Assembly: GCA_037833965.1 (NCBI GenBank)
Contig: AP031355.1
Coordinates: forward strand, 18,377,501-18,441,500
Length of the DNA stretch: 64,000 nucleotides
Direction: 5' to 3'
From: Marchantia polymorpha subsp. ruderalis
Lineage: Eukaryota > Streptophyta > Marchantiopsida > Marchantiales > Marchantiaceae
The position numbers were made by a program, and so were the translations under genes. Positions 286-31,490 of this stretch are shown piece by piece. Each line of letters starts with the position of its first letter. The stretch's first letter is position 1. The notes beneath the pieces are model-generated. The model was not told the DNA's origin. It did not search any database and saw nothing but the letters and a program-made list of their open reading frames with translations.

Positions 286-2317
286 GCATCGTCAAAACCA
301 GTAGGACCCGGAGAAAAGTTGGCACTTCAGTGAAATGCATATAGGTTCTATGAATGATCAGGTTTCAAACCTATGATGATGTAGATTCGGTGAAAGATTA
401 AGATTGATCGACTCCGAAGGCATGAATATGCATGAATCTCCACCAAAACACTGAGAAAACACTACCGCTATTTGTCTGATCCTGATCCTGAGTCCAGCCC
501 CTGAGGCTCTACGATTCAGTTCTTTGGACGGCTATTCGTCTCATCGATCGTTTCATGTAATATTCCTCGACTTCATCGAACCTTAAACCCCGAGCATCGA
601 GCCATACGAGCTTTGAAAACATGTATTATGTGATTCCATGCTAATATATTCATTTTGACGCTTCAATACATTTTTGCACATAAGAATAATAACAGAGTCA
701 GTCTCTTGCAGTATTCAAACTACCGAGCACATTCAGCGTTACTGTTGAAGTAGGCAGATTGCAGATTTCATTGCATTGTATTGATTCGTAAAATGACGTA
801 GAGAGGGGACGTTTCGAGTTTATTTCGATATAGCTCAATTGGTCATCACCAGACTGCAACATATTTTTCAATATATATTGGTCTAAGATTTCAAAATATA
901 TATGGCTATATTTCTAACATAAATGATTAAAAGTGATAAAAATATTGCTATAATTTGGTTTTTTTCTAACTAATACTATTATATGATAAATATTAATAGT
1001 ATTCTATTTCGAATATGCAAATTTGTTTTCAAAACTGAAATACGCATCGTTCCCATCCCACAGAACGGGAGGTTATTTAGGGTTCGGAGAATTAAAAATT
1101 TAATTTGAATTTCAGAACCTACAACTTGGAACAGATAAGTTACGAAGGTTTGAAAGATATACCACTCTCGGAGCCGGTTCCTCCTGTACTGTGGGATGGG
1201 AGGTTACTTAGGCTTTTCGCTAGAACAACCCCGACCGTATGCTCTCCGGGCTGACGGTATACGTACACCGTTCGTTTGGCACCGTCACCGTCACCCAGTG
1301 TGTTTCACCGTCACCGTCACCCGGGGTATCGCGATTCGCACCCAATACGACTCTGGCCTGCCTTCTCGTCTAGCATTTCTTGTGACTCACTTTCGGATTG
1401 ACGATGGCGGATCAGGCGACCTCGGAGGTGGCGATTTGTCGAATGATTTCTTCATTCTTCTGCATTCTGAGTTACGATTGTCGGGAGAGTTGCGTTTGTA
1501 TGGGCCAGGGTTTTTACTGTCGTCGCGGCTTTGAGAGAACTGGCGGGTTTCGAATTTTGTTTGGTTTCCTTCTTTCTCCTAGTCCTTTCTAAAAGCTCGA
1601 TGTCAGCCTTGCTCTCCGTTTCTCTACCCGTCCCTTCCCAGCACTGAACCTTGCATGCTGTTTTCTCGTACGTCTGGTCTCCGTTCCTCTCCCGTCCCTT
1701 CCCAGCTTTGAACCTTGCACGCTGTTTTTCTCGTCCGTCTGGTCTACCTTTTACCTGCAGTGGCTTTCGGGATCGTCAACCCGGAAGAGTTTCAGGAAAG
1801 CGCAATAGTCCCGACCCTGTCATAAAGCGTGTATGTTTCCCATTATCCACCTCCTCAAATCCGTGCCCACGTCTACATCAAATCAGTGTCGATGAATTGC
1901 TGCAGTAAGTGGTGATGGGTGACTTCCTGCAATTTACTGAAGTGGGCAGTGCCGAAGAAGAAGTTTCCTCGAAGTGCCATGGTGGAAACAGAAAACCTCT
2001 CTCGAATCTTCATCACAGTTTTGTGTTTTGATTTTCTGGGAGTCCATGGCAGACTCGATGATTTTGTTAAAATTGCGAAGCTGAAATGAAAGAACCTGAA
2101 TTATAAAAAAGAGCATGCTGAGTACTCAGATTTCAGACTATTCACCAGTTTAAACCCCACCACATCATCAATCTTGCGACCAGATACAGGACTGCTGCCA
2201 TTCTGCCAATTCTGCACCACCTTGCCAGGCACGCTGATTCCAAGGAATTGCCTAGGTTCAGCGAGCTAAGTGTCTCAAAATGTCCTAAGATATACTTTCC
2301 CCTACCTGATCTCAGCG

Positions 2318-2603
2318 TGGGCATATGTAAGAACTTAAGGAACTATACTACTGCAGCCTCGAGATCGATCCTTTTTTAATAAACAGTTCTTTTAAGTCTT
2401 TCAACTCCCACAGTGAATCGTATTAAGCTATTCTGTCATTGAGAACAAGATCCGGACTTGTGGGCATATGTAAGAACTTAAGGAACTATACTACTGCAGC
2501 CTCGAGATCGATCCTTTTTTAATAAACAGTTCTTTTAAGTCTTTCAACTCCCACAGTGAATCGTATTAAGCTATTCTGTCATTGAGAACAAGATCCGGAC
2601 TTG
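2318..2603. repeat. 143-bp perfect-looking tandem duplication inside the TIR element
   Basis: The stretch beginning TGGGCATATGTAAGAACT at 2318 and ending GATCCGGACTTG at 2460 is repeated immediately at 2461-2603. The second element copy (18688-20090) contains this segment only once, so the duplication arose in this copy. Confidence 0.9.
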
Positions 2604-2902
2604 TACGCGAACTGTGTTGACTCATGAATCTTTCTACTCAGAAGCTCTGATTTCCTTGTTTGGTTTCGTTGGATGGATGCTCTAACGAAGGAGCGTTCCG
2701 AAAATTTTAACAAGCCGCTTCTGTGTCCCGCACACGGAATGCTTTAGTAAAAGGCGAAAGATAGTTCGCTCTGGACAGAACTTCGGCTGGTATTCTCATC
2801 AGCCGAAGATCCAAGAGTATGAACCCCGCAGAAGGCTCTTGTGGCGCGCACATTGTTCCATGCGCCGACACGTGTCCATGTGTATAATTTGAATTCCAGA
2901 GG

Positions 2903-2935
2903 GTCGCGTCAAGAAGTCACCCGTCTTGACGCGAC
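2903..2935. repeat. 12-bp perfect hairpin near the right end of TIR element copy 1
   Basis: GTCGCGTCAAGA (2903-2914) is followed after nine bases by its exact reverse complement (2924-2935). It lies in the subterminal region rich in ACCGTC repeats and is missing from copy 2, which has an internal deletion here. Confidence 0.7.
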
Positions 2936-5126
2936 GGTGTCAAAGGAGAGACCGTCACGACGGTGACCGTATGCCGTCGGCCCACAGTCATACGGTCGGG
3001 GTTGTTCTAGCCTGCAGTTTACTTAGGCTTCGGATAATTTAAGATTTAATTTGAATTTCAGAACCTACAACTTGGAACCGATAAGTTCTGAAGGTTTGAA
3101 ATTTATACCACTCTCGGAGCCAGCTCCTCCTGTACTGTGGGATGGGAGGTTACTTAGTATTCGGAGAATTCAAAATTTAATTTGAATTTCAGAACCTACA
3201 ACTTCAAACAGATAAGCTACAAAGGTTTGAAAGATATACCACTCTCCCAGCCAGCCTCCTCCTGTACTGTGGGATGGGAGGTTACTTAGGGTTCGGAGAA
3301 TTTAAAATTTAATTTGAATTTCAGAACCTACAACTTGGAACAGATAAGTTCTGAAGGTTTGAAATATATACCACTCTCGGAGCGCGGCTACTCCTGTGGG
3401 ATGGGAGGTTACTTAGAGTTCGGAGCATTTAAAATTTTAGTTTGAATTTCAGAACCTACAACTTGAAACAGATAAATGCTCGGTGCTCTTCAGTGCTCGA
3501 CTCATTCTTTCCAGGTACAGTTACTGATCGTGATTGCTAAAGACGTGACTTCAAGAGTGGAAGAGGAAGGCAAAACCTCAGTTTTGATTTATCAAGAGGA
3601 GAGTGCACACACTCACGATCGATGGTTCCTTAGCTGTCACAGTATCTACTATTGCATAGTTTATGACGTTTCTAGTGGTGTCAAGGTGCAGTTTTTTCAG
3701 GAAAAAACCACTATCACAATAAGAGGGAAAGATGAAATTCTGCTCAGGTTCTGCTTCGAAAGGTACATATTCGCATTCCCATCTCCAGCTATGAACAGGG
3801 CCTTAGATTCTAGGTTGGTTTGATGTTTTTTTGTCATCGACAAGTTCTTGTGAAACACAACAAAAAGAACCAACAATAAATTTCCAAACCATTGATTGTA
3901 TCGATGGCGGTTCTATAAAATCAAAGGTTTGAAAATTTATTATTGGTATTTTTTCTTGTGCTTCACAAGAAATTTTAGATGAGAAAGAAACATTAAATCT
4001 AATGAGAATCTTTGGCACAGTTCATAGCTGAAGATGAGAATACAAAAGCGAGTATATATCTTTTGAAAACATTAAATTCAGTTGAATATTAAATTAATTA
4101 CAATGTATTATTGGATGGTATAAAATGATTTGTAAAATTTTTGTCTAAAATACTGTCAGTCTAGATGCAAAATATTTAATTGCTTAACTCGTTATTCAAT
4201 ATAAAAGGAAAAGTCATCTGAGTATTTTAAGATAAATCTAGTTCCTATTATTTTTATGTGAGAAATACGTTCCTCACATACTGAACATCTTTGTTTTATA
4301 TAGCATAGCAAAAAAGTCATATTCTAAATTTATTCTATATATAATAGAAATAACTTTCTTTTTACTCCACTTTTTTTGTTGAAGGTTGCCATGTAGCTCA
4401 TTGTTTTGAAAATTATATTTATTCAAGGATCTGATATTTTTGTTCAAATCAGTGGTTGGAGAAAGTACTCAGTTTTGGTTCGTTGGCCGATTGAGGTTTC
4501 TTCTAAACTTTTTTCTCAATGCTTGATTCAATACTTTCAGTTTTTTGGCTAGTTACTGTGTCTCTAGACCGAGGAGTATGAGTACTACCGAAATACTTTG
4601 CTCCATCTTTCAGATTTTCCCATTTCATCAATTTTAAATTTGAACAATAATGAATGATGAGGGTTCATTGTGTGAGCTTCTTAGGTAATCATTTTCTTGG
4701 AAGTATTGAGAAATGTCAAGACTCTCGGTTCGAGGTTTATAGATATAATATTCCCTACGTATGTTTGTATAAGATATCCAAACTCTTTTTCTATGGCAGG
4801 GAGCTTGTTACAAAATGCTTCTAACCGCAAAAATATCCAAAATTTGTTTGTTGTGTGTGCATAAGCGAATCTACTCTTCCTTTCCTTTGGGGATTTCGCC
4901 CGGAGTTTCTCTTGCTCACCCAATCTCTTGATCACCCAAGGACCTTACCCTCTTCTCATCGATGAAATTATCAGCAACTCGAACGAACAGTCAGAGTTCG
5001 TTGTGCATGTGAGTTCAATCCACTTCAATGATCAGAGGAGCGGCCAAAGGTCGACATATTTTCGGGATGAACAACAACACTTCGTGGTCTTCCCAAGCGA
5101 GGATCTGCTCATCTAAGAGACGTGTG

Positions 5127-5508
5127 TCAAACATCCGCAAACAGTTTGTAGTAGCTCGTGTCCAGAATCAGCTGGCGTACAGCAGCTACAGCCCCGACCA
5201 GGCCCACGAGGCTGTAAACAATGATGATGATCAGATTGCCCCAGAATTTGATGGAGCGTTTGGGCGGCTTGAACACCAGGATGTAAAACGACCATGGGGA
5301 ACACGAAGTCTAGAGGAGTGAACCCGAACGAGCCCACGATCGCGTTCACGTCACCAAAGAATGGGAACATCGCAGCTATCAGAGTCACCAGAGCCAGAAA
5401 AACAACGCGCACTATCACCCGAGGAATCCCGTTCCGAGCTGTGAATCGATCCTTGTCCACATCCGCGACCTTCCGCTCGAAAAGATCAAACGTCGGTTGA
5501 CTGTATAT
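5127..5508 (-). pseudogene. Duplicated last exon of a GAT1-like permease, frameshifted
   Basis: This is an almost identical copy of exon 7 of the 21580-24903 gene, inside the left arm of the inverted duplication, together with intron 6 (5509-5646) and about 15 bases of exon 6. The acceptor AG before the exon is kept. The frame follows QPTFDLFERK...DFVFPMV and then breaks: one extra base at about 5289 shifts the rest, so it is 382 instead of 381 bases. No other exons are near, so it lacks a start codon and the first three quarters of the transporter. It is a pseudogene by truncation as well as by frameshift. Confidence 0.92.
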
Positions 5509-6362
5509 CTGCAAAACCGAATCGAATCGTGGTCATGTCAGACACTTCACATCAAGTTTCGTGGTGTCTCCTGCTCTCACGAATGCATTCAAGCCAGCTC
5601 AGCTCAGACATGTCAAGAGAAGGGAAGAGAAGTTGCAGTGTCTCACAATTGCGGCAGATATTTCCAATCTTTTTCACAATTCCTTTAATGGTTTTTCCAT
5701 CATTCAATTCTCAACAAATCGAATGAAGAGAGAAGCCTAATACGTTTCCGCTCGCCGCTACTAACGGAGTCTCGGTTGATTTCCTTTCCTTTAGCTACTT
5801 AGATGTTTCAGTTCGCTATGTTGTGAAAGTCCAAGGCGTATAAACTGGATGAAGGTGAAATGATTCAGAAATTCATGCTGATGACCGATCACAAACACTC
5901 TCTCCGTCGACAGGATCTGCGATCTGTCATACGAGTGCATGACAGATCGCAATACTGCTGCATCGCTCTTTATTGCCAGTAATCTCGTGAAATGACTTCC
6001 AAATATGAGAGGCGGACGACGCTCAGTGACGTGAGCTTTCTACTCTGAGCTCCCTGGTCCAGTCCTGAACTGAACTTACGACACATGCAGCACTTCCAGG
6101 ATCGCTCCGACAAGCCGCAAGAGGTCATTCCAGGCACGCACGTCGCTTCCGATATTCGACATTCGGAGAAACCATTTCAGAATGGAGGTTGAGACTGCCT
6201 TATGGCATAAAATTTGCCGACCAGAGTTCCTGGGAATTGATAACGTGGAGTTGGATATGCAGCCAGCGAATGTGCAGTTGCTCCCAATTTCACCGGATTC
6301 CTCTCTCCACGATTGAACGCAGCTGTTCCATTTTGCGTAAAAATCATATGATAATATAGTAT

Positions 6363-6550
6363 AGGGGCTGACTAGGGCCACACCCGCCCGCTAAAAGATC
6401 AATAGCACCGTCAGCAGGGGTACACGGAAACAGCGGATGACCTCGGGTTAGCAACTGGGTTTGAGGGGAGTCGTGCTTTGACTCGTAATCAATTCTTTGT
6501 ATGTAGCGGGTGTGCCATAGCAAAAACGAATGTGGCCCTAGTCTGCCCCT
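6363..6550. mobile_element. 188-bp MITE with ~21-bp terminal inverted repeats
   Basis: The left end reads AGGGGCTGACTAGGGCCACA and the right end, in reverse complement, reads AGGGGCAGACTAGGGCCACA: one difference in 20. The flanks are AT-rich (TATAGTAT on the left, CTAATATAATATA on the right), so a short TA-type or AT-rich target duplication cannot be told from chance. Subterminal CACCCGC and GCGGGTGTG also pair. It has no coding capacity. Size and ends fit a non-autonomous DNA transposon; the family is not clear. Confidence 0.75.
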
Positions 6551-6635
6551 CTAATATAATATATAGCATATAAAGGGTAAATAGAATTCGAGATTTCCTT
6601 CCAATAAACTAAAGCTGCAGTACGTCCACTTCAAG

Positions 6636-6685
6636 TAACCACTTTATTCCTCTCTTCAACTAACCACTTTATTCCTCTCTTCAAC
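6636..6685. repeat. 25-bp tandem duplication
   Basis: TAACCACTTTATTCCTCTCT followed by TCAAC occurs twice in direct succession (6636-6660 and 6661-6685). Confidence 0.9.
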
Positions 6686-9600
6686 GGGGAAAATACTTCA
6701 ACCTGTTCGATTTTGACCATGATGCAGGAATCGTCGGCGGGTTTCATGCATTCCGGTGCATATTAAATTAAAAGAGCTCAAATGTTAGATATCACATTAC
6801 TTTGTTCCAATCATATAGGGGACTCAGTCATAGAATAATGCTTTGATTATCTCGAAGGTCATATTTATGTGAAGTATATTTCTTTGTCATGAACAGCTTG
6901 TTAGATTTCACATTTCTTTTCAGAAGCATTTTTGTACTTTCATATCACCTATAGTATAGAGGTAGAGCTCGGGAGCTATTCATCCTAGGTAAGTGAGGGT
7001 TATGATCACGGTAGTCTTCGCATGACTTGTTTGAATGCATCCCAACATCTTCTGTTAACATCCATGAGTCTCATTCGACTGTGGTGATGGAAATTGTTGT
7101 AACATTTGTCTTGTAATATGCTTTTCTGCCAGCTGAGAAACCCTTTGCTGTAGCTCAGATGAGTGACGAGAGCACCTCGTGTCATTTGTGCTGAAACCAA
7201 GCCGTGATTTTTCCTAACTTGACACTCAGATCTCGCAATCAAACTCGATCGTGTATCCGAATGTCATGGATGTCATATCAATCTCTAGAATAGACGAATA
7301 CTATATCTCAGCAGGATCTCCCACAACATCTGAGGATAACCCAGCTGGTACTGTACGTGATCCGAATCTAAAATTCCAACGCCCACCTTCGATCCCCATG
7401 CTCATGCTCATGCTCAGCAAGAAGAAGCGGTCCCGTGAACATGAACTGTTGTTTGGGTTCAGATGACTCAAACGCATTGCAGCCATACGGCAAATCATTC
7501 GAGTCTCTCTACACAATACGGACGGTGGGAAAGTAACTCCCATGTCCTCAGGAAGTGTGGATATCAAATCAGTCCGGAGCATCTTACTGGAAGATCTGGC
7601 AAATCTGTATATCAAGTAACACTGCTCAAAGTTGGATGTATGAGTCTTTGGTGTCGTTTCAACAATCATTGACTCAAACTTTCCTGATCCCATATGCCTT
7701 TTATAAAACTTTTGCTCGAGTGAATCTTTCATGTGAGTTAAAAACTGCCGAATTCAGTTTGTGCAATGAGTCAGCAGGTCCCCACTTTCACTCTTCCACT
7801 CTTCCACTCTTCCACGCGACCATGAAAACTGCTCTTTCTGAAACAAACTTCTCGTGGAACTCATTGAGCTAAGGACATAGAGTACACGATTCATCTCGCG
7901 ATGGAAATGCATGTGCAGGTCTTCGGCGAGAGAGAAAGAGAGTATCTGAGGTGTACGTTTGTACAGTCGAATCATGGGACTCTTTGGGCCAGCTCAATTT
8001 CGTACTGACTTTCATCGATGCTTTCAAGTGGCCTGGTTTGAGCTTCGGGTATTGATTGGCTTTGGGGAATATTTCGAATCAGGCGTCTGTAAGTACCAAG
8101 TGGTCGATAATTTTATTTATTTATGGCGTTCTTGAGGGTCATTGTCCAACCATATGACTGATATTGTTCCAAGGTGACCATGCTGAATATACTGCTTTGA
8201 ACCAAGAGCCTGGCGAAGAGTTGGCGCTAAGAGACCTGGTTGGCTTCTGCTGCTTTACTTATGGGCAACTTCTCTGCATCTCATATGTGCCTCGAGGTCA
8301 CGTTCAGTCCTCACAAATCTACTCGCATATACTGAGTTCAACTTTTGTCTGTAAGGTTTCCAGTAATTCACTTCGTCTATATATTGATTCGTTGTCGTAC
8401 TTAGACCAGAATACCAACAAAAGCTTGAATATAAGAGATATTTATGAAGGGTCCTCGTAGTGTCAAGGAACCATTTGACAATCGATTAATTATGAAGAGT
8501 GAAGTTGGCTTTGATTCTACTGTCTCGTTCACTTTCATATCGCTTGATATTGGCACGTTTGTAAGGGAAGCAAGCAAGTTAGGCTTTTGGGGTTCCACAT
8601 ATTTGAACCTTCAATTTTCCAATGAGGATTCAATTTCCGCTAATTCCAATCCCCCTACTCGAGTGGGATCATTGGCCATTCTTTGTATGTGTCATATCTT
8701 TGAGTATCTATAATTGGATTGTGTGCCAATGTTTCAATGTCATTGCGCAAAAGTAAAGATTTAATCTAAGAAAAATTAATATTTAATAAAATATGTGATA
8801 AATAGATATTTACTTATGCTTCTCTTATTCTGTATGTTCCATAAAGCTTTCGAATTTCTTTTTGAAACGTTCACCTGTAAACATAACGTTTACATATGTG
8901 GGAAAAAGAGTATTAAGAATTCATTCATGTATTAGAAATCGGAAAACTTACGAGCCTTGTTTAAATCTACTGCTAAAGAAGCTTCTTGATAATTTGTACA
9001 TTAGACAAACAAATTGAAATCAATAAACAAGAGATAAAATATTTATTTTAATTGAAAAAAATTAAGAAGAGATAAAGGATTTTGTTTCACTGGAAATTAT
9101 TATCTGCAAACCAGAATATTTAATGAAATCATATAATCTTTTTTTAAAACCTCTGACCAAAAAATAAGAAAGTGCAGGAATAATTTGATCCAGACCACCT
9201 GCATGTACAGTATTACTTTATCTATTTATCTCATAGTTTTGTTGATGTTCGCGAATACTTAATTAGAAATTTCATTTCAGAAGGAAGAAGATGTTGAAGA
9301 AATATCAAAATGAAGATATAATACAATGACAGGTTTATATCTTGATTACTTGAGAACGATTACGAAATTCATGAATATCTAGAAAATAATCATAAAAATA
9401 GGAAAAAATCAAGAAATATTAATATCATAAAGACATCAATTTAAGAAATATTTTTTCCACGAAAAACTTGTTTTAAACTTATTTTGAACAACAACCTAAA
9501 CATTGACTTTTATTCATCATTCTCAAATAATTTTATATTATTGATGATAATTTTATTTTCATCAATGGGTTGTTGTTTTATACTTACATCACTTCAAATA

Positions 9601-11462
9601 TCGTCATTTTGTAATGATAATATTCGTTTCATGCTTGTATATTTTTTATCACGTCTTTCATGGAAAAAAGAAAAACTTAAATACTATTGACCTGCCCAAA
9701 TGGCCCCCTGAGGACGGACTTTGCTTTGTCGGACCCCGAAGCTATAAACCTGTCCGACAGGGTGTCAGACAATGAACCAACTATGCTTGCAACGTTCGAC
9801 ATATCCTGGATCAGATCCTGCCTCATCTATCCGTTGGGGACAATGTTAACGTGTGCTGGACAACACGAAGAGGTCTGCGAACTTTAGGGAGGTGCCGATG
9901 TGGCATCTCCGTCCCTGCACGTGTATCATGGCTTTCATGGCCACAGTTATGCTTTCTGTCACAAGGTTCTCATGGTACTGAATTCCAGACCTTCATGTCT
10001 CTCTCCCTCTGTTTCATCCCAATATTCCGGAAGATGATTAAATTTCTTAACACCACGTTTCTCACGTTCCCTTCACTACAGAAAGGGACTCTGATGAAAC
10101 AGCTCTTGCTTTTTTCCTGAGAAACAATGTCAGTTCTCCTCCTCGAGCAAGAATTTGTGTGTAGACTAGAATTTTACATTCTTGTCTTTTAAAAACGATT
10201 TGCATATCATCAAATTACTTCCAGAAATTATCAAAAACGACGAAAATTTGGACATCGACAAAAATCAAGTCGAGTCTATGTTATAGTTGATTCTATGTTC
10301 TGAAACGGAAAAGTGCATCGTCAATCGAGGAGGAAGAAATATTGATGTTCATAAACCGAAGGCCTCAGTTCTATTCGGCGACAAAAGGAGGAGGAAAAGG
10401 CCACATTTCTGGAAAAGCAAGTCAACTGAGCTAGAAAACGTGCAGTCAGAAATAAAGGCTCGATGATCATCTAGTCGAGGCTCATCTACCCATCTCATCT
10501 CAGGCAGGCCACAGGCAATATCACACCTGTGCACTACTGTACTCAGTGTTGACGACATCTGTTGGACGAGATCATGAGTACCAGAGCGTCGTACCATCGC
10601 CTTTCTGCGTCTGACGTGGCTATGGTGGATTTGTAAACGAGGGCCCTCGAGAGTCTCATCGACTCTCTCTCACGTGAGTGACTGCCTACCAACGACGACG
10701 ACACTGTAAGACTGAATAGTGTGCGAAACTTGTCGTCCTCGCAAGACCATTGGAAATGTGTAGTAGCCTCGAGAGCAGGTCGCAGATCAGAGGTGCTGAA
10801 AAGCGAGACGTGAGGTGACAGACACACAGACCCAAGCTCAAGCAAACCGACAAGATGCTCGTCAACGCAAATTTTCCAGTCGTCCACTGTAAAGCCACCG
10901 ACCCGTACTGCTGGGGTAGGAAAGGAAAGGAAACCTTGACGGCCTCTGCTGACATCTGTTTCCAAGACTCAAGGAGGAGGATCCCTGCTCCGGATACGCC
11001 CTGCCAATGATCCCCCAACCCTCACTCTAGCACGGGTGCCTGGGAATTGCATCATGTGACGAGATGGTCTTGAGAAGTCGCAAACATTTGTCATGCACTG
11101 GTGGAGGAGCTGCATGCTGGTGACAGGAGAACCTCTAGATCTCTTGAGAACCAGTCAGTCAGTCAGGATTTTACGAGCCTTCGAAGCTCTGGCTTCTTCT
11201 CGTGGGTGTCTGTCTGTCTGTCTATCTTCGAAGCTGAGCATTAGAATTCGAGCAGCTCTGCCTGCTTTCAGAGAATTTCTGAGCTCAGTGTCAGCTCATT
11301 TTCTTCTGAGGTTTGAATACTGGTGCTGCAGGAGGAGGTGTTCGAGAGCTGGATTTGTGAACTGGATGACTCTGCGTGTAGGTAGGTAGGAAGGTAGGTA
11401 GTCAGTGACTGGACATCGATTGCAGTGCAGCTTGTATATAGAAGGTGTCGAAATTCGACGAA

Positions 11463-14431
11463 ATGGTAGCGGATGAGACAGTTCCCAGCGCACTGGAATT
11501 GGGAAACGGAACCTTGAAGCAAAGGCATCATCAAGCAGATCCGGACGCTGCCAATAAGGATGCAGGGGCCTTGTTCGTCTTGGAATCCAAAGGTGCTCCT
11601 CCTAAACTTCCTTCCTTCACTCGAACGAAGTCAGAAGTAAACGCAACGCACAGAGAGAGAGAGAGAGTTCAGCTTTTGATTTCCTGATTCTGTGACAGAT
11701 TCTGGTCCATATGATAATTTCTTCATACCACACAGATTCGTAACAGCCGCAACCATTTGTGAGATCTCACAAATGGTCATACTTAATTTCTGCTTCCTGA
11801 ATGCTCAACTACTAATTTCCTGCCATGACTGCGAGGCTCCAAACGTTGTGATCTTACTCCACTCTGACATAATCTTGTACATCCTTGCCTCCTCACTGTG
11901 GGGGCTGGACCTGTTGAGCAAGCTAGTGCCGATCAGTTCTCCCGAATTTGTTCTCGATTGTTTGTCAGCAAAGTGGTCTGAATTCTGAGGGTCGAAATTC
12001 CCTCATTGAACACAGAGATGGATGATTAGTCATTTGTTTCGCCATTCCTGGACAGGACATGGGCTGTCTGACATGGGTGGCTTTCATCATACTGCAGGGA
12101 CGTGGAAGCACGCAGGATTTCATCTGTCGTCGTCGATTGCCGCGCCGCCGCTGCTGACGCTGCCATTCGCCTTTGTGGCCTTGGGCTGGGAGTATGGAGT
12201 GCTGATGCTCGTGCTGGGCGCCGCTGTCACATTCTACGCCTACAACTTACTGTCCAAGGTGTTGGAGCATCTGGCCGAGCAAGGTCGCCGTCACCTTCGA
12301 TTCCGTGACTTGGCCACCGACGTTCTCGGTTCGTTTCAGCCTGCAATCAGTCGAATCTCATTCAGTAATTCGAGAATTGCCCCACAAAAAGCTCGATGAA
12401 TGTTGTCCAGAGTTTGACGTCAGCTGGTTGGTTGGCGCTCATGTACCTTCATGAAATTCGACGTTTCTTCGTTTCAGAGCTTCGACGTGTTTGATGATGA
12501 TGATGATGATGACAATTGCAGGACCTACTCTCTCGAAATGGATCGTTTATCCGACGCAGCTCGTAGTCTGTATAGGGGTGGTAATTGCAAGTCCCCTTCT
12601 GGGAGGAATCAGTATCAAAGTACGTACCAATTGAAACCCCCAAACCCTCCAATTTGATTTGATGACCTTCGAACGTGAACATCTGGCAATTGATTCGCTC
12701 GCTCTGCTTGCAACAACACTGCTGCTTGCTGGCTTGCTTGATAGCCGAAACCCTCAAGTTTCAGAACCGCATGTGCTGGTTTTATTTTCAATCCAGTGTG
12801 TCCTCCCACAGCTTCCCAAACGTCTGAAGAAGTTGCAGCAGTTTTTTTTTGTGTTGGGTACGAGGCAGAGAAGTTTGGCACTGAATGAATGAATGGTCGA
12901 TTGTAATTGTAATGTATCTAATTGAGAGCGTTCGACCTTGTTCTGACAGATTATATACAAACTGTATGCTCCTGATGGAGATCTCAAGCTCTATCATTTC
13001 ATCATCATATTTGGAATCGGATTGATATTCGTCGGCCAGATGCCATCATTCCATTCCTTACGTTATATCAACTTCGTGTCTCTCGTTATGACTCTCTGCT
13101 ACAGCTTCACAGTTTCCGGAGCTTGCATTTATCTAGGTCAGCCTTCTCCACCATTCTCACTCATTTGTTCATTGCCACTGCTACAAGAAATATCACAACG
13201 AACCTCATCGAAGTTCATGGCGTACCGAACATTACATAATTGGGCTGACACTAGTTTTGATTCTGTTGCTTCAGTTCGTTATTATATAAATATATATTAA
13301 TATAATATATCATAATAAATAATGTGTGAGAGACATTTCACCTCATTTCAGTGGTGGTGAATTCATTTTGTGGCAGGTAAATCGGACAGAGCTCCTGCTA
13401 AGGATTACAATCTACCGGGAAGTGAAACTCAGAAAGTTTTTGGAGCGTTCAACTCCTTGGCCATCATTGCAACGTCGTATGGAAATGGAATCATTCCGGA
13501 AATACAGGTGCAATTTGATCACCCTCTGATGGTGCTCTGTGATTGAAACTTCATGCCATCGTGTGGGACATGAGGATGACTCGCACAGGATGATGAAATA
13601 TAAACTCCATGAGTAACCTGTCTGAACTCAGAATGCTTGTTCTTGAGAATCAAGGTTGTCTGTCATGTTTGATCCAAATGTATCTCAGAGACTCGTACTG
13701 GACCTTGAATGGCAGGCAACTCTGGAGCCGCCTGTGACAGGCAAAATGTTCAAGGGTTTGACAGTGGCTTATGCCGTGGTCATCTCCACCTTCTTCACCG
13801 TCGCCATTTCCGGGTACTGGGCTTTCGGAAATTCTGCAGCAGGCAGCATCTTCACCAATTTCCTTGAAGCCGATGGAACGCCACTTGTTCCCAAATGGCT
13901 CATTGTCATGCCCAACGTCCTATGCATCATCCAGCTTCTGTCTGTCTCCATTGTAAGTGCATCCATTGTCTGCACTGCACTCTTCACGAGCTTTTTTTCT
14001 TCATCATCATCCGTGAGCTTCAATGGTCTGACAATTGCACCTCTGTGCAGATATACTGCCAACCGACATTCGATTTGTTGGAGGGCAAGAGTGCAGACGT
14101 AGAGAAAGGACGATTTTCTGCTCGGAATTGGATCCCTCGTCTGATTCTGCGCACGACATTTCTGTGCGCGTGTACTCTGATCGGCGCCATGTTTCCCTTC
14201 TTCGGCGATGTGAACGCCATAATCGGGGCCTTCGGGTTCACTCCGCTGGACTTCGTGTTCCCAATGCTGTTCTACATCCTGGTCTTCAAGCCGCCCAAGC
14301 GCTCCATCAAATTCTGGGGCAACCTCATCCTCCTCGTTGCTTACACTGGGGTCGGTGTGGTGGGCGCCATCGCTGCCATCCGCCAGCTCGTTCTGGACAC
14401 CAGCTATTATAAGCTTTTTGCCGATATTTAG
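11463..14431 (+). CDS. GAT1: GABA/amino-acid permease, GAT1-like (AAAP family), first tandem copy
   Basis: Predicted exons are 11463-11592, 12098-12328, 12522-12619, 12950-13136, 13377-13507, 13716-13952 and 14051-14431, giving 464 residues. The protein fits the plant GAT1 branch of the amino acid/auxin permease family, proton-coupled importers of GABA and related amino acids usually at the plasma membrane. A hydrophilic N-tail is followed by the first membrane segment region (HLSSSIAAPPLLTLPFAFV), the RFRDLATDVLG loop, MPSFHSLRYINF, the GYWAFGN motif, and the C-terminal FPFFGDVNAIIGAFGFTPLD region ending in KLFADI. About 10-11 membrane segments are expected. The ATG at 11463 is preferred because MVA...DAGALFVLESKG aligns with the second copy. 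Exon phases match the other gene exactly. GABA specificity is inferred from family; lysine/histidine-type relatives cannot be fully excluded. Confidence 0.9.
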
Positions 14432-17400: not shown

Positions 17401-18687
17401 AATGTACATTATCGTGAGTGGAGTTCTAGCGCATTATAAAAAAGTTCGAAATTTATCTCACAAGAAGAAGAAGAAGATTGACTCGGTCTTCTTTTTTTTT
17501 GCATTGTATTGTTCAAGCCATCTTTTTATCTGAGTCTATGGAAAGTGAATCCGGACAAAGATTACCTGAACAGAGTGAAAACTATTCGCTTTTTTTCATT
17601 CCACTGGATATTGTTTGACTCACAATCAAAATAATTAGAAAATGTGCATCGGTGGAATTGTATTACGGCCAGGTGTAAAACAAATGAGTCAAGCCCTACG
17701 ATCTAAAAGATTTCCACCTTTTACCAGAGTTGACTGGTGCTTCATAAACCTCTCCCCATAAAGTTGATCCACTGGTCAAAGACAGAAGCAAGGATGAGAT
17801 TGTGTCATACATTTTTATAGCCAGTACGGATCTAAGAGCCCATCCCCAACCCGGAACCAACGTCTTTTATTAGCCTCCGACTTTCTTCCTAGTTTGACTC
17901 AGGCGCCCTAAATTGCGGGACCGGGTGCTCTAATGGGGCTGGTAACTGTAGACCCCGAGATCTGGGAGAGGGCACGGGAGAAACGGTTCTACCTTGATCC
18001 ACTCTACCCGAACTTTGTGGAGGCCGGTCCGCTGCCATCATGAAGATTTGTGCACATCCGGTGAGACAGGTCAAAGTCTAACACCCATTTCTGCGCAGAA
18101 CCACGGTGATCTTTATAATATAAGGATAGCTTTCTATATTTGACATACAGAGCACATTATATTGGCATGAATTCGACCTTTTACAGTACTCTTTAGTGCC
18201 CTTATTCCATATACTCTATCATGCAATCTTCAATGATTGACAGGCAAAATTACTGAAAATTTGTAGATATTCTCTAAACACGGAACTATTTTAATAACCA
18301 AAGTCCACTCCTAATGATATATCATTGTGAAATAATACTTTAGAATGTATGACTAACTCGGGACAATTAATTTTTGAATAAAATTGAGACTTCAAGACAT
18401 TTCATAACTCAACCCAATTTTTTTGGAAATAAATGATGCAGCTCTAAATCACATCTAGAGATAATATCTCAAGTTAAAGGAAACAAGTGAAGTCAACAAG
18501 TTGGAATCCACAATGCTCGTGCTGACCCTAGTGCCGACCACATGCGTGTATAGTTACATTAACGGTATCGTGTCAAGCTGGACAAATGACTGAGGCTGAG
18601 TCGCTGATCAACTTTTGTGCCTTCTCTCTCAGAATGTAAGGCCAGGGGAAGAAAAACATGTTGAGGTCAGCCATAGTCGCTTCTAAG
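14432..18687. other. 4.3 kb AT-rich intergenic DNA between permease copy 1 and TIR element copy 2
   Basis: No supported gene. It will contain the 3' end of the first permease transcript. Most is AT-rich with frequent stops in all frames; the longest frames (71-79 codons near 16221-16699) show nothing recognisable. A more GC-rich block at 17820-18080 stands out and is listed separately. Confidence 0.6.
17820..18080. other. GC-rich island of unknown origin in AT-rich spacer
   Basis: About 260 bases with clearly higher GC than either flank, including GGGACCGGGTGCTCTAATGG and CATCCGGTGAGACAGG. No frame looks conserved. The style (non-coding, GC-rich, sharply bounded) could fit an insertion of organelle DNA or a repeat fragment, but I cannot identify it. 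Confidence 0.3.
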
Positions 18688-20090
18688 ACTGCAGGCTAGA
18701 ACAACCCCGACCGTATGACTGTGGGCTGACGGCATACGGTCACCGTCGTGACAGAAGCGGCTTGTTCAAATTTTTGGAACGCTCCTTTGTTGGAGCACCC
18801 ATCCAACCAAACCAAACAAGGATATCAGAGCTTCTGATTCATGAGTCATAAGATTCATGAGTCAACACAGTTCGCGTACAAGTCCGGATCTTGTTCTCAA
18901 TGACACAATAGGTTAATACGAACTACTCTGGGAGCTGAAAAACGCAAAACACATGTTTATAAAAAAAGGATCGATCTCGAGGGTGCAGTAGTAGAGTTCC
19001 ATAAGTTCTTACATATGCCCACACTTGGATCAGGTAAGGGAAACTCTTCATTAGTACATTTTGAGACATTTAGCTCGCTGAACCTGGGCAATTCCTTGGA
19101 ATCGACGTGCATGGCAAGGTGATGCAGAATTGCAAAAACGGCAGCAGACCTGTTTCTGGTGGCAAGATTGATGATGTGATGGGCTTTGAACAGGTGAATA
19201 GTCTGTAATCTGAGTAACACGAACTCAGCATGCTCTTTCTTGATTCAGGTTCTTTCATTTCAGGTTTGCAAATTTAAGAGAATCATCCAGTCTGCCATGG
19301 AGAGAGGTTTTCTGTTTCCAGAATGGCACTTCGAGGAAACCACTTCTTCGGCACTGCGGACTTCAGTAAATTGCAGGAAGTCACCCATCACCACTTACTG
19401 CAGCAATTCATGAAACTCATTTGATTGTAGACATGGGCACGGTTTGAGAAAGTGGGTAATGGGAAACATACACGTATTATGACAGGGTCGAGACTATTGC
19501 GCTTTCCTGAAACTCTTCCGGGTTGACAATCCTGAAAGCCACTGCAGGTAAAAAGGTAGACCAGACGGACGAGAAATACAGCGTGCAAGGTTCCGTGTTG
19601 GGAAGGGACGGGGAGAGAAACGGAGACCAGACGGACGAGAAAAACTGCATGCAAGGTTCAGTGCCGGGGAGAGAAAAGGAGAGCAAGGCTGACATCGAGC
19701 TTTTAGAGAGCACTAGGAGAAAGAAGGAAACCAAGCAAATTCGAAACCCCGTCAGTTCTCTCAAAGCCGCGACGAGAATAAAATCCCTGGCCCCATACAA
19801 ACGCAACTGCCCTGGCAATCGTAACTCGCTAGAATGCAGAAATCATTTGACAAATGATTTCTGCATTCTAGCGGATGGCCACCTCCGAGCTCGCCTGATC
19901 CGCCATCGCCAATCCCAGAGAAAGAAATGCTAGACGAAAGTGTCGGCAGGAGTCGTCTTGAGGGCGAAACGTGAAACCCCTGGTTGACGGTGACAGTGAA
20001 ACCCGAAGGGTGACGGTGACGGTGAAACCCGAACGGTGTACGTATGCCGTCATCCCGGAGAGCATACAGTCGGGATTGTTCTAGCCAGAA
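18688..20090. mobile_element. Non-autonomous TIR element, probably Mutator-like (copy 2, opposite orientation)
   Basis: It begins ACTGCAGGCTAGAACAACCC and ends with the inverted counterpart (GGGATTGTTCTAGCC at about 20072-20086). Its left end corresponds to the right end of the element at 1216-3018 and its right end to that element's left end, so the two lie in opposite orientation. It shares interior sequence but has lost roughly 200-250 bases next to its left end, lacks the 143-bp duplication, and has gained a palindrome (19827-19873). Subterminal GGTGACGGTGA repeats are present. No target-site duplication is visible and no transposase is encoded. The interior has exon-like patches (an ATGGCGGATCAGG start-like context in copy 1; FRIVNPEEFQESAI frame in both). 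Confidence 0.75.
19827..19873. repeat. Perfect 23-bp palindrome with 1-base centre
   Basis: CGCTAGAATGCAGAAATCAT continues to 19849 and is followed, after one base, by its exact reverse complement at 19851-19873. Copy 1 of the TIR element has only a single non-palindromic version of this stretch near 1420-1480. Confidence 0.9.
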
Positions 20091-21579
20091 GAGCTGTGTC
20101 GGTTTTAGGTATGGTTGCCTTGAACGTGTTCATGGCAAAGTCGGCTTCCAGAAACAAAAGTTATGCCGCTGTCTCAATTTATGGATTGAGAGAAATTCCA
20201 AATATCCCCAAAGCAAAAGCGTCGAACTTTTTGTTCTTAATGAAGCTCAGTCGACGCACTTTACAACAAGTCTTGAGCAGCATGGTCTCATGGCTCTACT
20301 TACGGCTCCAGAAGATTAGCTCACCACTGCGCACCTGCGCCAAGTGGATTTTCAGAAAGGATTCCGTCAAACGCTAGAGCTAGAGTCATGGGTATCCTGG
20401 GTGCACCTAACACTCACTGCTCCACAAATTGAAGAAGAAACGTGTTTAGGGTAAATGGTTGAAGAAACTCGACAGTTCTCAACTGAGGAGGCAAAAGCTG
20501 CGACACTGCCTAGGCCGTATTTAGAATGTAAGTGCTGTACATCCACACATCAAATTTGTTGGATCACATACGATTACTTCAGCATGTGGAACAATCGAAG
20601 CGACATAAAATTCAAGAACAAGCAAAGACATCTTGGAGTTTAGCTGGCTGCTGACCTCCGTACACCTTGAATCGAATTCAAAGCATTGATATCATTTCAA
20701 TTTATTATTCTCTTGACCCAAATTATCATCAGGCAGATTAGTTACAGCTGTCGAGGACCAAGTCAATAGGAAAGAACCCCTTCAGCACACAACCCAACCA
20801 CATCAAACCGTTCTAGGAGGAGCTGTGGTGAAGAAAATCATGTCTAGAGTTCATAGGTTCAGAAGGAGAGTCCCCCACGCCTCGGGCTCTGGGCTCTAGG
20901 CCCCGGTGCGTTCTTCTGTGCTCATCAACTGGCTGGGCTCCAGGTGTAGGCAATCATTACCTACTTCCTTGACTGCCACCTTGACTGCGCTGGACAAAAG
21001 TCAACCTTTTAGAGGTGAAGGTGGTTCCCCATTCGGCTTTTGACAACACCTGAACAGCGCCCACGTAGACCATCAGTTATTGATCGGCTCGACCAAAAAG
21101 CAAACTCCTGAATCGGTCACGTCTGTCCCAGAGAGTCGAGGGCGAGTTGTACTCTTACAGGGATCCGACAATTTCTGCAAGAAAAGAGCAGGACATATCA
21201 CCGCCTTTCTCTCGCTCTGCTCCCACCGATTTCCACCCGGGGGCGGTGGTCATTCTATGTTCTCCGTTGCGTTGACCGATATTTTATTCAGCTGACAAAC
21301 ATGATTGGCTCTGGCCACTTCTCCAGTCAACAGAGGAAGTACCCAAAACTCGGGAATCGTTGGGCGAGCGATTCTGGCCTTGGAGAATCGAGAAACATGC
21401 GTCATGTGCATCGAGAGACGAGTGCCAAAGTGAGTGAGGTCCGAGTGAGGCGAGCACCTGTGCATATTCACAGGGCTCTTGGAACATTCGTCAACCGCGA
21501 CCGTTGTCGGTGGCAGGAGGAGGAGCAGGAGGGGCACTAGCGGGACGAGCGGCGCATAGCGGCATCGATCGAGGCGAAG
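20091..21579. other. Spacer upstream of the second permease gene
   Basis: No supported gene. Two overlapping + frames at 20036-20377 look organised but read in competing frames and match nothing I recognise. GC content rises toward 21300-21579, where the promoter and leader of the permease starting at 21580 should lie. Confidence 0.5.
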
Positions 21580-23004
21580 ATGGTGGCGCTCGAGACGGAG
21601 GAATCGGGCAGCGGATCTCTGAAGCATGGGGCGCTGGAGTCGCGGGAGCAGTGGGAGCCGAAGAGAGACGCCGGTGCGCTGGTCGTCCTCGAATCCAAAG
21701 GTGGGGACTCACTTCCCCCTACTCTCGATTCGGGCTCCATCGCCCCACCGATGAAAGCCCATCGTTACCCATTCCTCCCTGCTCCCTGTCGGATCTTCCT
21801 GCCGACCATCGACGTGTTCTTCGGGCCCGATGTTTCCCGCGAGCTCAGGCTGCTTCTGCCAGTTCTTGTGAATTGAGGATTACTCAGGCGGTCACGGGGT
21901 GCAATTCACGATTCTCTTCCGGGAGAATCGCGAGGAAGAAAGTATGAGCACACCCACTCTGACATTCGAGCCTGAATCCTGCAGAGATTTTCCTCTTGCC
22001 TGCTCTTCAGAAACCACCAGAATGGTCGAGTCTTTGTCGGAGAACTTCCACATCCGAATGTGCGTGTGCCTGATGAGTAGAAGCTTGTCCTCAAAGCTCG
22101 TGCAGAGCCCACCGTAATCGCGGTATGTGCATCACTTTGATGATCGTTTCTGAGTGCTTGGGTTCCAAGCCGGAGGTGAATGAATGCCAGGAAGTTTGAT
22201 CATCAGTCATGGCGATCGATGGAGGTAGGAGCATGGAATCCCTTGTGCACCGGAGCGTTCAGGACCGGACCTCCATCCCGACTGATCGACTGATAGACCA
22301 CCGTGCGAAGTGCCATGCGAGACGTACCAGAGAGTTGAGGGCTGGTTCTTTGATGCCTCCCTCGTCTTCGTTTGCTCGCTGACAAATTATGGCTGTGTGC
22401 AATTGCAGGGAGCTGGCAACACGTCGGGTTCCATTTGACGGCTTCAATCGCTGGACCTCCGATTCTCACGTTCCCATTCGCATTTGCGGCATTGGGCTGG
22501 GCATGGGGAATGATCGCGCTCGTGTCCGCCGGCGTCGTCACCTTCTACTCCTACAACTTGCTTTCGCTGATCTTGGAGCACCGCGCTGCCCAAGGTCGTC
22601 GCCACGTCCGATTCCGCGACTTGGCCACAGACATTTTGGGTGAGACCCTGCACTCGCAAAACTCATGGCCAGCCTCAATGGGCCCTCTGATGCTTTGGCG
22701 GATCGAGGTCGCGCGCGATTCCTTCCTGATTATCAGTAACGGATTACAGTGATTGACTGCTCAGCTTCCTGCCAGAAATTGCTTACGCCCGCGAGCTGAT
22801 TCGAGCACAATCTGTGCCTTGTGTTCCTCAGTAGAAGGCTGCCATGGCCCAAGCTAATTCGATGTTGGCTTGTGCGCTGATGCAGGGCCGAAACTCTCAT
22901 ATGGGCTTGTTTATCCGATGCAGTTTGTTGTGTGTCTAGGCGCAGTGATTTCCATTGTCTTGGTTGGAGGAATCAGTGCCAAAGTAAGCAAGTCACAACT
23001 GAGT

Positions 23005-23039
<35 letters not shown>

Positions 23040-24903
23040 CCAACGCCTTCTTCAAATTTGACCACTGAACCCTGCTCGCTCACATCCACATTCACCGAGG
23101 GTGGGACACATGCAGACATTCCAGCTCAAATGTAGCTCGAATCCGATTCATTTCACAGTCTCCTCCTCCCCATGTGGTTCACAGAACCATTGAATTCGAT
23201 TGAAGAACGAAGCTCGAGAAGCAGCGAATGAAGAATGTGAAGCTGACGTCGCAAGCCCTCGCGTGCAGGTTGTGTACAAAGTATACTACCCGGATGGAGA
23301 TCTGCAGCTGTATCAATTCGTCGTCTTCTTCGGGGCGGCCACGATGATCATGGGCCAACTCCCGTCGTTCCACTCGCTGCGCTACGTCAACCTTCTGTCG
23401 CTGCTGATGTGTCTGACCTACAGCTTCACCATAACCGGGGCCTGCATCCAGTTAGGTCAGCTCTGACTGCGTTCCATCGATTCTCAACTTTCCTTTCCGA
23501 CCTCCGCCGCAGTTGCCGCTGAATTTGTAAGAATCTGTGACGTAGTTTGATTGCTTCACCGGGTAAACCTCATCCGGACGGACGTCGACGCAGTTCTAAA
23601 ATGTTCTAAAATGCGCTTCCGCAGGATACTCCGACCGAGCTCCCCCGAGAGACTACAGTTTACCGGGGAGTGAGAAACAGCAAGCATTCGCGGCGTTCAA
23701 CGCCTTGGCGCTGATCGCTACGGCGTACGGGAATTCGATCATTCCCGAAACTCAGGTACATCGACGACGTCCTGGCGTTACGTAGTCGTAGTAGGATTCG
23801 AATCTTTATAAGGAATCTTTAGGTGCTTTAGTCCTAGAGAATGGGAAATTATGCTTGTTGTTGAGGCTGCATGGTACTGAAACTTCTCTTGGAACTCAAG
23901 GATTTGCCAAGCATATGCAATGCTTTTTTTGTGTTGGTACGTGAGATGTAGACAGGTCCTCCGTCTTGTTGATTGGTTCTCCTTCTTCTAAGAGTGCTAT
24001 ATAATCATAAAAATATATTTTCTGATACATCAAATATATGTATTGTAATAAGGGCATGGGGCATGCCTTTTGACGTTGAAAGGGGGCATGGGCATCCCTC
24101 GAAAAATTTTGTTGTGCCTCCAACCCTACTGCTGACGCCGTCTCGCGCAGGCAACTCTGGCGCCTCCGGTCGAGGGGAAGATGTTCAAAGGACTGGCGAT
24201 GGCGTACTCGGTCATAGTGGTGACGTTTCTGCCTGTGGCCATCGCCGGATACTGGACGTTCGGAAACCTCTCGGCCCCCAGCGTGTTCACCAACTTCCAA
24301 ACAGCGGACGGAACACTGCTCGTTTCGAAATGGCTGATCGTTATGCCCAGCTCCATGTGCGTCATCCAGCTTATATCTGCCGCAATTGTGAGACACTGCA
24401 ACTTCTCTTCCCTTGTCTTGTCTGAGCTGAGCTGACTTGAATGCATTCGTGAGAGCAGGAGACACCACGAAACTTGATGTGAAGTGTGTCTGACATGACC
24501 ACGATTCGATTCGGTTTTGCAGATATATAGTCAACCGACGTTTGATCTTTTCGAGCGGAAGATCGCGGATGTGGACAAGGATCGATTCACAGCTCGGAAC
24601 GGGATTCCTCGGGTGATAGTGCGCGTTGTTTTTCTGGCTCTGGTGACTCTGATAGCTGCGATGTTCCCATTCTTTGGTGACGTGAACGCGATCGTGGGCT
24701 CGTTCGGATTCACTCCTCTAGACTTCGTGTTCCCCATGGTCTTTTACATCCTGGTGTTCAAGCCGCCCAAACGTTCCATCAAATTCTGGGGCAATCTGAT
24801 CATCATCATTGTTTACAGCCTCGTGGGCCTGGCCGGGGCTGTAGCTGCTGTACGCCAGCTGATTCTGGACACGAGCTACTACAAACTGTTTGCGGATGTT
24901 TGA
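21580..24903 (+). CDS. GAT1: GABA/amino-acid permease, GAT1-like (AAAP family), second tandem copy
   Basis: Predicted exons are 21580-21700, 22409-22639, 22886-22983, 23269-23455, 23625-23755, 24151-24387 and 24523-24903, giving 461 residues. Apart from the variable first exon, every exon has the same length and phase as in the first copy, which proves tandem duplication of a seven-exon gene. Family landmarks: GSWQHVGFHLTASIAGPP, RHVRFRDLATDILG, MPSFHSLRYVNLLS, GYWTFGN, FPFFGDVNAIVGSFGFTPLD and a KLFADV end. The expected role is proton-driven uptake of GABA or other small amino acids across the plasma membrane. Coding GC is higher than in copy 1. Its last exon and downstream DNA were the source of the inverted copy at 470-5661. 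Confidence 0.92.
23009..23036. repeat. (CT)n microsatellite in permease intron 3
   Basis: About 14 CT units just downstream of the exon 3 donor of the second permease. Confidence 0.95.
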
Positions 24904-27115
24904 CACACGTCTCTTAGATGAGCAGATCCTCGCTTGGGAAGACCACGAAGTGTTGTTGTTGATCCCGAAAATATGTCGACCTTTGGCCGCTCCTCTGATC
25001 ATTGAAGTGGATTGAACTCACATGCACCACGAACTCTGACTGTTCGTTCGAGTTGCTGATAATTTCATCGATGAGAAGAGGGTAAGGACCTTGGGTGATC
25101 AAGTGATTGGGTGAGCAAGAGAAACTCCGGGCGAAATCCCCAAAAAAAGAAAGGAAGAGTAGATTCGCTTATGAACACACAACAAACAACAATCTCCTAG
25201 AAAATAAAATTTTGGATAATTTTGCGGTTAGAAGCATTTTGTAACAAGCTCCCTGCTATAGAATAAGAGTTTGGATATCTTTTACAAACATACGTAAGAA
25301 ATACTATATCTATAAACCTCGAACGGAGAGTCTTGACATTTCTCAATACTTCCAAGAAAATGATTACCTAAGAAGCTCACACAATGAACCCTCATCATTC
25401 ATTATTGTTCAGATTTAAAATTGATGAAATGGGAAAATCTGAAAGATGGAGCAAAGTATTTCGGTAGTACTCATACTACTCGGTCTAGAGACACAGTAAT
25501 TAACCAAAAAACTGAATGTATTGAAACAAGCATTGAGAAAAAAGTTTAGAAGAAACCCCAGTGGGCCAACTAACCAAAACTGATTACCTTATATCATTTT
25601 ATACTGTCCAATAATTTCCATTGTAATTTATTTGATATTCAATTGAATTTAATGTTTTCAAAAGATATATACTCGTTTTTGTATTCTCATCTTCAGCTAT
25701 GAACTGGGCCGAAGATTCCCATTAGATTTGATGTTTCTTTCTCATCTAAATTCTTTTGTGAAGCACAAGACAAAATACCGATAATAAATATTCAAACCCT
25801 TGATTTTATAGATTCGCAATAGAGACAATCAATGGTTTGGAAATTTATTGTTGGTTTTTTTTATTGTGTTTCACACGAACTTATAGATGACAAAGAAACA
25901 TCAAACCAACCTAGAATCTAAGGACCTGTTCATAGCTGGAGATGGGAATACGAATGCAAATATGTACCTTTCGAAACAGAACCTGAGCAGAATTTCATCT
26001 TTCCCTCTTATTGTGATTGTGGTTTTTTCCTTAAAAAACTGCACCTTGACACCACTAGAAACGTCATAAACCATCGATCATGAGCGTGTACACTCTCCTC
26101 TTGATAAATCAAAACTGAGTTTTTGCCTTCCTCTTCCACTCTTGAAGTCACGTCCTTAGCGATCACGATCAGTACTGTACCTGGAAAGAATGAGTCGAGC
26201 ACTGAAGAGCACCGAGCATTTATCTGTTCCAAGTTGTAGGTTCTGAAATTCAAACTAAAATTTTAAATGCTCCGAACTCTAAGTAACCTCCCATCCCACA
26301 GGAGGAGCCGCGTTCCGAGAGTGGTATATATTTCAAACCTTCAGAACTTATCTGTTCCAAGTTGTAGGTTCTGAAATTCAAATTCTCCGAACCCTAAGTA
26401 ACCTCCCATCCCACAGTACAGGAGGAGCTGGCTCCGAGAGTGGTACAAATTTCAAACCTTCAGAACTTATATGTTCCAAGTTGTAGGTTCTGAAATTCAA
26501 ATCAAATTTTAAATTCTCCGAACCCTAAATAACCTCCCGTTCTGTGGGATGGGAACGATGCGTATTTCAGTTTTGAAAACAATTTTTCATATTCGAAATA
26601 TAATTTATTAATATTTTATTTTATTTATCATATAGCAATATTTTTATCACTTTTAATTATTTATGTTAAAAATATAGCCATATATATGCTGAATATCTTA
26701 GACCAATATATATTGAAAAATACGTTGCAGTCTGGTGATGACCAATTGAGCTATATCGAAATAAACTCGAAACGTCCCCACTCCACGTCATTTTACGAAT
26801 CAATGCAATGCAATGAAATCTACAATCTGCCTACATCAACAGTAACGCTGAATGTGCTCGGTAGTTTGAATACTGCAAGAGACTGACTGTGTTATTATTA
26901 TTATTATGTGCAAATATATTATAGCGTCAAAATGAATATAATAGCATGGAAACACGAAACGCATGTTTTCAAAGCTCGTATGGCTCGATGCTCGATGCTC
27001 GGGGTGTAAGGTTCGAGGAAGTCGAGGAATATACCGTGAAACGATCGATGAAAAGAAGAGGCGTCCGAAGTAACTGAATCGTAGAACGTCAGGGGCTGGA
27101 CTCGAGATCGAGCGG
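24373..27115. repeat. Right arm of the large inverted duplication (partner 470-5661)
   Basis: This arm starts within the last 15 bases of permease exon 6 and runs through exon 7 and about 2.2 kb of AT-rich downstream DNA. It lacks the TIR element, about 340 bases present in the left arm at 4131-4470, and a 30-base stretch matching 3630-3660. Downstream of the stop codon at 24903 no further gene is supported, so 24904-27115 is permease 3' region plus repeat DNA. Confidence 0.9.
26270..26545. repeat. ~128-bp tandem repeat, about three units, reverse orientation
   Basis: TAACCTCCCATCCCACAG and the associated blocks recur near 26281, 26398 and 26527 (spacing about 117 and 129). These are the reverse complement of the repeat array at 1063-3475, with fewer units. 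Confidence 0.85.
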
Positions 27116-31418: not shown

Positions 31419-31490
31419 GTGGCTGTAGTTTAGTGGTAAGAATTCCACGTTGTGGCCGTGGAGACCTGGGCTCGAATCCCAGCAGCCACA
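31419..31490 (+). tRNA. tRNA-His (anticodon GUG)
   Basis: A 72-base cloverleaf without intron. GTGGCTG (31419-31425) pairs with CAGCCAC (31483-31489) and the discriminator base is A. The anticodon stem is CCACG/CGTGG with loop TTGTGGC and anticodon GTG at 31452-31454. The A-box-like TAGTTTAGTGG and the B box GGGCTCGAATCCC are intact, so RNA polymerase III can transcribe it. The encoded 3' end has no CCA, as expected for a nuclear gene. Histidine tRNA additionally receives a 5' G after transcription. Confidence 0.97.

Follow-up and report, generated by a model that had tools for sequence, protein, structure and literature searches.

An inverted partial gene copy with organellar DNA at its inner seam beside a transporter gene pair in Marchantia polymorpha

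The analysed stretch of DNA (64,000 nucleotides of Marchantia polymorpha subsp. ruderalis, C6:18377501-18441500, hereafter the window) carries two amino-acid transporter genes on the plus strand. Gene 1 (11463-14431) comprises seven exons in its splice model and encodes 464 amino acids; gene 2 (21580-24903), likewise of seven exons, encodes 461. For the exon structure of gene 2 four splice models passed, and we picked one for its likeness to gene 1. Both proteins belong to the Aa_trans family, scoring above the PF01490 cut-off of 25.6 bits: 234.7 bits (E 2e-69) for gene 1, with one residue of the query protein wrong, and 209.8 bits (E 7.2e-62) for gene 2. An open frame is kept in both genes, intact throughout gene 2. 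With dN 0.22 and dS 1.53 between them, the pair is old. Genome-wide searches were performed in the organism's own assembly (241 Mb in nine contigs, of which eight measure 24-33 Mb and the ninth, perhaps a small sex chromosome, 5.6 Mb). The window also contains a tRNA gene according to Rfam (31419-31490, plus strand, 64.4 bits) and an open frame of 1266 codons between stops (34434-38234, minus strand), which by eye is acidic and contains recurring stretches rich in lysine and glutamate.

The 3' end of gene 2 is present in the window a second time, as a partial inverted copy. The right arm (24373 to an outer end at about 27103, plus strand) begins with the final 15 bp of gene 2 exon 6, continues through intron 6 and exon 7 and extends some 2.2 kb into the 3' flank beyond the stop codon. 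Its counterpart, the left arm (490-5661, minus strand), is broken by a transposon and probably by a second insertion. Self-BLAST detected four inverted matches, all with an E-value of 0.0: 4465-5661 with 24373-25587 (95.0% identity), 3659-4129 with 25593-26071 (91.2%), 3144-3627 with 26069-26538 (91.7%) and 490-1215 with 26390-27103 (88.5%). The arms were also aligned base by base, and the inverted homology runs over mostly non-repeat sequence, as in a segmental duplication. The inverted segmental duplication is therefore real. This confirms an earlier note, made from the sequence alone, which had described arms that are near-identical in the exon and the immediate 3' region and lie about 19 kb apart. 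The inner edges given there (5661 and 24373) hold, but the outer ones shift from 470 to 490 and from 27115 to about 27103. The spacer measures 18.7 kb and encloses gene 1, a transposon (18684-20085) and exons 1-6 of gene 2.

When 24373-27115 was searched against the own genome, 18 candidates were scored and 24 matches obtained, so that repeat counts are lower bounds. The top three non-self matches were all to the left arm (1929, 1294 and 929 bits). Weaker ones fell again within both arms, on gene 1 exon 7 (246 bits) or, with at most 91.5 bits, on short repeats elsewhere; among the 18 scored candidates there was no third copy of the arm segment. Misassembly is a known hazard where near-identical sequence lies inverted, and one might suspect an assembly artefact or a haplotype duplication. 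However, the arms differ at 122 of the 2500 sites compared in total, by indels and by arm-specific insertions, and the junction with organellar DNA described below is resolved. Such an artefact is therefore highly improbable.

The outer flanks of the two arms are mutually unrelated. Sequence spanning either outer edge, which could have marked the ancestral one, was found nowhere else in the genome by a search that skips simple repeats. Gene 2 runs intact across the right inner edge, which we therefore took as ancestral.

One of the two insertions in the left arm (1212-3018) is a short, non-autonomous transposon of hAT type. It has terminal inverted repeats and is flanked by an 8-bp target duplication, TTACTTAG, at 1204-1211 and 3019-3026 (read by eye), which moves its start to 1212 from the 1216 of the earlier note. 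Since the element has no counterpart in the right arm, it is younger than the duplication. Elsewhere in the genome the nearest copies of it are 98-99% alike, and the spacer transposon at 18684-20085 is a second member of the same family. Inverted ends were present at all ten transposon loci compared (L024-L033). Target duplications, judged by eye, were exact in the window copy (L024) and in L026, L029, L031 and L033, contained one mismatch in L025 and two in L028, and were not recognisable in L027, L030 and L032.

Within this element, positions 2677-2789 on the minus strand resemble U5 snRNA (RF00020, 57.5 bits). The genome holds at least 44 U5 matches (47 of 17367 first-look candidates were scored), ten of which overlap listed transposon copies. 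Eight of the ten loci L024-L033 have kept most of the U5-like stretch; in L027 and L030 just the 3' part is left. The loop-1 motif GCCTTTTAC is exact in six of those eight and one base off in L026 and L031. A consensus Sm site, identified by eye, is kept in L027, L028 and L030 and altered in the other seven loci. We rejected the U5-like sequence as a working gene: no USE-like motif occurred at up to two mismatches in the aligned stretches. The family is best described as a hAT-type family with an snRNA-like passenger. A limited literature search for hAT elements with captured U5 returned nothing on point, and we do not claim that they are absent from print.

The earlier note mentions neither the other insertion nor the unequal tandem repeats described next. 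This second insertion, a 335-bp block found in the left arm only (4130-4464), is probably a repeat that inserted after the duplication, because parts of it match five other places (66-82% identity) and all of these matches begin within 1 base of its low edge; none reaches the other edge. Alternatively, the block could have been deleted from the right arm. The arms also differ in the copy number of a tandem repeat with a unit of about 130 bp, which occupies 26220-26538 in the right arm (plus strand) and has more units in the left (1067-1215 and 3016-3475). An internally palindromic, MITE-like block is common to both arms (3775-4068 and 25683-25976) and must thus be older than the duplication. 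A further MITE-like element with inverted ends lies outside the arms at 6351-6562, and many of the 56 matches listed in the genome search are further copies.

Mismatches between the arms are unevenly distributed. We counted 9 among the 713 inner sites (from intron 6 through exon 7 into the beginning of the 3' flank) versus 113 among the 1787 sites beyond, with the hAT element and the left-only block excluded, together with most of the tandem array and positions 4835-4849, 3628-3661 and 25191-25214. A change-point of such strength arose in 0 of 2000 permutations. Without the exon, the change-point was located at 25478 (2.5% versus 7.0%) and was matched in 1 of 2000 permutations. Assuming an unchanged gene 2, the left branch predicts 22.5 inner differences against the 9 seen (Poisson P=0.001, an optimistic value because the split between inner and outer part was chosen on the same data). 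In the outermost block, 22 transitions stand against 25 transversions; transitions thus do not dominate, which is evidence against methylation-driven decay.

Our preferred reason for this pattern is that the inner part was probably homogenised by later gene conversion between the arms. A lower regional mutation rate in the inner part could imitate conversion, and a clean division into two steps of divergence is at odds with the outer part, which is itself uneven (blocks span 3/132 to 47/579). This bears on the age of the duplication, which had been called recent in the earlier note. That term is borne out only in part. Set against the divergence between genes 1 and 2, the duplication is far younger than the gene pair. 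But given the contrast between inner and outer sites, the near-identity of the arms may reflect later homogenisation and not youth.

The left arm contains a copy of the last exon (5127-5508, minus strand), opposite in strand to both genes and frameshifted by one extra base near 5288. Going upstream from it, one meets intron 6, the partial exon 6 of 15 bp and finally organellar rRNA sequence. The suggestion that the left arm donates a free-standing last exon is accordingly not borne out: the exon is out of frame, faces the other way and has organellar rRNA sequence in front of it, and no relic of exons 1-5 was found above chance in the window or in 30 kb to its left. With gene 1 as outgroup, four of five exon-7 substitutions fall on the gene 2 side, and one, together with the extra base, on the left copy. 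The left exon is therefore not visibly faster-decaying, although so few substitutions allow no further conclusion.

Relic B, at 80-262 on the minus strand and close outside the left arm, is what remains of another last exon: its decayed 3' half, with two in-frame TAG codons. Searches detected it with E 5.7e-7 and E 1.2e-10, and it fits both genes about equally well (score 208 with gene 1, shuffle maximum 78; score 212 with gene 2, shuffle maximum 82). Within it, 107-147 is a short palindromic stretch of the kind that a local template switch would leave. An extension of relic B into 263-489 as the 5' half of the exon was unsupported (p 0.168-0.998 over 18 alignment tests). This interval, between relic B and the arm, has no match elsewhere in the genome and is not recognisable as exon.

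At its inner edge the left arm abuts a 179-bp fragment of an organellar LSU rRNA gene (5662-5840, minus strand). RF02540 matched with 60.3 bits at 5741-5822 and RF02541 with 55.5 bits at 5573-5837, the latter match extending into the arm as well. By its resemblance, we take the fragment to be probably of mitochondrial rather than plastid origin. Parts of it occur at 13 other genomic places, ten of which were compared (L054, L059 and L061 were left out). Beyond the arm seam, L047, L048 and L052 continue together for 20 bases with non-arm sequence, at the point where the window switches to the arm. L047 and L048 do not count as independent, because both stem from a single insertion that was itself duplicated on C7 (1983 bases, 99% alike). 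At the 5840 seam the window changes to other sequence, while L057 and L060 run on in common for about 42 bases. Since copies elsewhere continue past both seams, the fragment has two located ends, and with nuclear DNA on either side it qualifies as a nuclear organellar insert.

At the arm seam, arm and organellar sequence overlap by about 1-5 bases, by eye. End joining at a break that captures organellar DNA usually leaves a seam like this. We consider it very probable that the inner left junction is a break-repair join. Filler or short shared sequence, as expected of a repair-mediated duplication, was present at the inner left seam only; at the outer seams no filler was recognisable. A limited literature search for organellar insertions at plant inversion breakpoints or in Marchantia returned nothing on point, from which we claim no absence.

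The same junction could have arisen in another way. If gene 2 had once been duplicated as a whole in inverted orientation, the left arm would be the remnant of that duplicate after its upstream exons were deleted and the deletion was sealed with organellar DNA. The abrupt edge in exon 6, joined to organellar DNA, could equally be read as a deletion junction. Against such a history, with the proteins and exons of both genes as queries, no relic of exons 1-5 rose above chance in the 30 kb of left flank and the window (E 0.07 or worse), and exon 6 was represented there by only the 15 bp at the arm edge. We regard a remnant of a whole duplicate as improbable. Two short matches that turned up in this search were dismissed as chance: the best one outside the arms and relic B, a 14-base stretch with E 0.078, and a 14-base exon-7 match at 5712-5725 (E 0.35), which falls inside the organellar fragment.

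The earlier note proposed that the arms could promote inversion of the interval or hairpin-mediated instability; the evidence points rather to arms that are themselves a product of earlier break repair. We tentatively favour the explanation that an old double-strand break, repaired by inverted copying, produced the left arm as its scar, the organellar scrap in the seam being what suggests break repair. A 2.7-kb stretch of the gene 2 3' end would have been copied in inverted orientation to fill a break, some 19 kb distant, that adjoined the already decayed last-exon relic, and one seam would have been closed by end joining with the organellar, probably mitochondrial, LSU rRNA piece. Gene conversion would later probably have homogenised the inner parts of the arms, and the left copy would have decayed through the frameshift, the hAT insertion and probably the second repeat insertion, whereas gene 2 stayed in frame. 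In this account we infer the break, the joining, the direction of copying and the conversion; the inverted copy with its edges, the organellar insert with both ends, the hAT insertion, the frameshift and the uneven divergence are direct observations. All of this is ordinary genome evolution. The capture of organellar or nearby DNA in break repair is already in print (PMC2671141, PMC6215612, PMC2567098).

Several observations count against this explanation, besides the unevenness of the outer part noted above. Copying of 2.7 kb over 19 kb exceeds the proximal class delimited in the consulted part of PMC2671141. The minus strand of relic B is left unexplained and needs a separate event. And the exon-7 substitutions, most of which fall on the gene 2 side, do not favour a faster decay of the left copy.

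The orientation of relic B would be accounted for by an inversion with staggered breaks, which we consider a real if somewhat doubtful possibility. The ancestral order would have been gene 1, gene 2 and relic B, all in one orientation, until two breaks, a staggered one cutting through the 3' end of gene 2 and another on the far side of gene 1, let the 19-kb block flip. Filling in of the staggered ends would have left the 2.7-kb segment inverted at each end of the block, with organellar DNA trapped at one seam; the left outer edge would be ancestral and the right outer edge new. Inverted arms at both ends of the block are indeed what this mechanism requires, and the minus strand of relic B then needs no separate event. 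However, the supposed earlier order rests on no outgroup, and no genomic match spans either outer edge to mark the ancestral side. Moreover, the 5' half of relic B's exon and the exons upstream are missing, though the inversion would have left that flank undisturbed. We think it unlikely, in the fuller version of this account, that a small and now fixed inversion flipped the transporter pair through staggered breaks with trapped organellar DNA, that the arms are still converting and that the block could flip again.

Read as a break-repair scar, the locus is a base-resolved example of how break repair that captures organellar DNA can make partial gene copies and inverted repeats in a plant. It also warns that near-identity between such arms need not mean youth. 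Were the inversion true, it would be the plant counterpart of a mechanism known best from Drosophila.

Among known systems, the left-arm transposon resembles the Pack-TYPE hAT elements in the excerpted text of PMC8903248 in being non-autonomous, in its terminal inverted repeats and 8-bp target duplication and in carrying host-derived sequence, but its passenger is U5 snRNA-like and not a protein gene fragment. With Dada, as presented in part of PMC3706591, it shares the association of a DNA transposon with snRNA genes; Dada, however, inserts into snRNA genes with 6-7 bp duplications, whereas here the U5-like sequence lies inside the element. The organellar fragment is like the plant numts and mosaic organellar insertions of PMC6215612 and PMC7037861, where short organellar pieces are joined to nuclear DNA with little shared sequence, but unlike them it borders a segmental duplication.

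The duplication itself is comparable to the repair-mediated duplications of Pace et al. 2009 (PMC2671141, in excerpt), which are partial chromosomal copies left where a break was repaired, with filler or short stretches of shared sequence in the seam. Their proximal class has its donor within 5 kb and measures at most 619 bp, and many of the more distant duplications look like retrotransposition; here, in contrast, the copy is 2.7 kb long, 19 kb away and inverted. Inversions are also the subject of a herring paper. The staggered-break inversions of Drosophila, according to the portion of PMC5080602 consulted, likewise carry an inverted duplicate at both block ends that derives from one breakpoint. 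The Marchantia locus differs from them in that its prior orientation is hypothetical, in the organellar filler at one seam and in a block of only about 19 kb.
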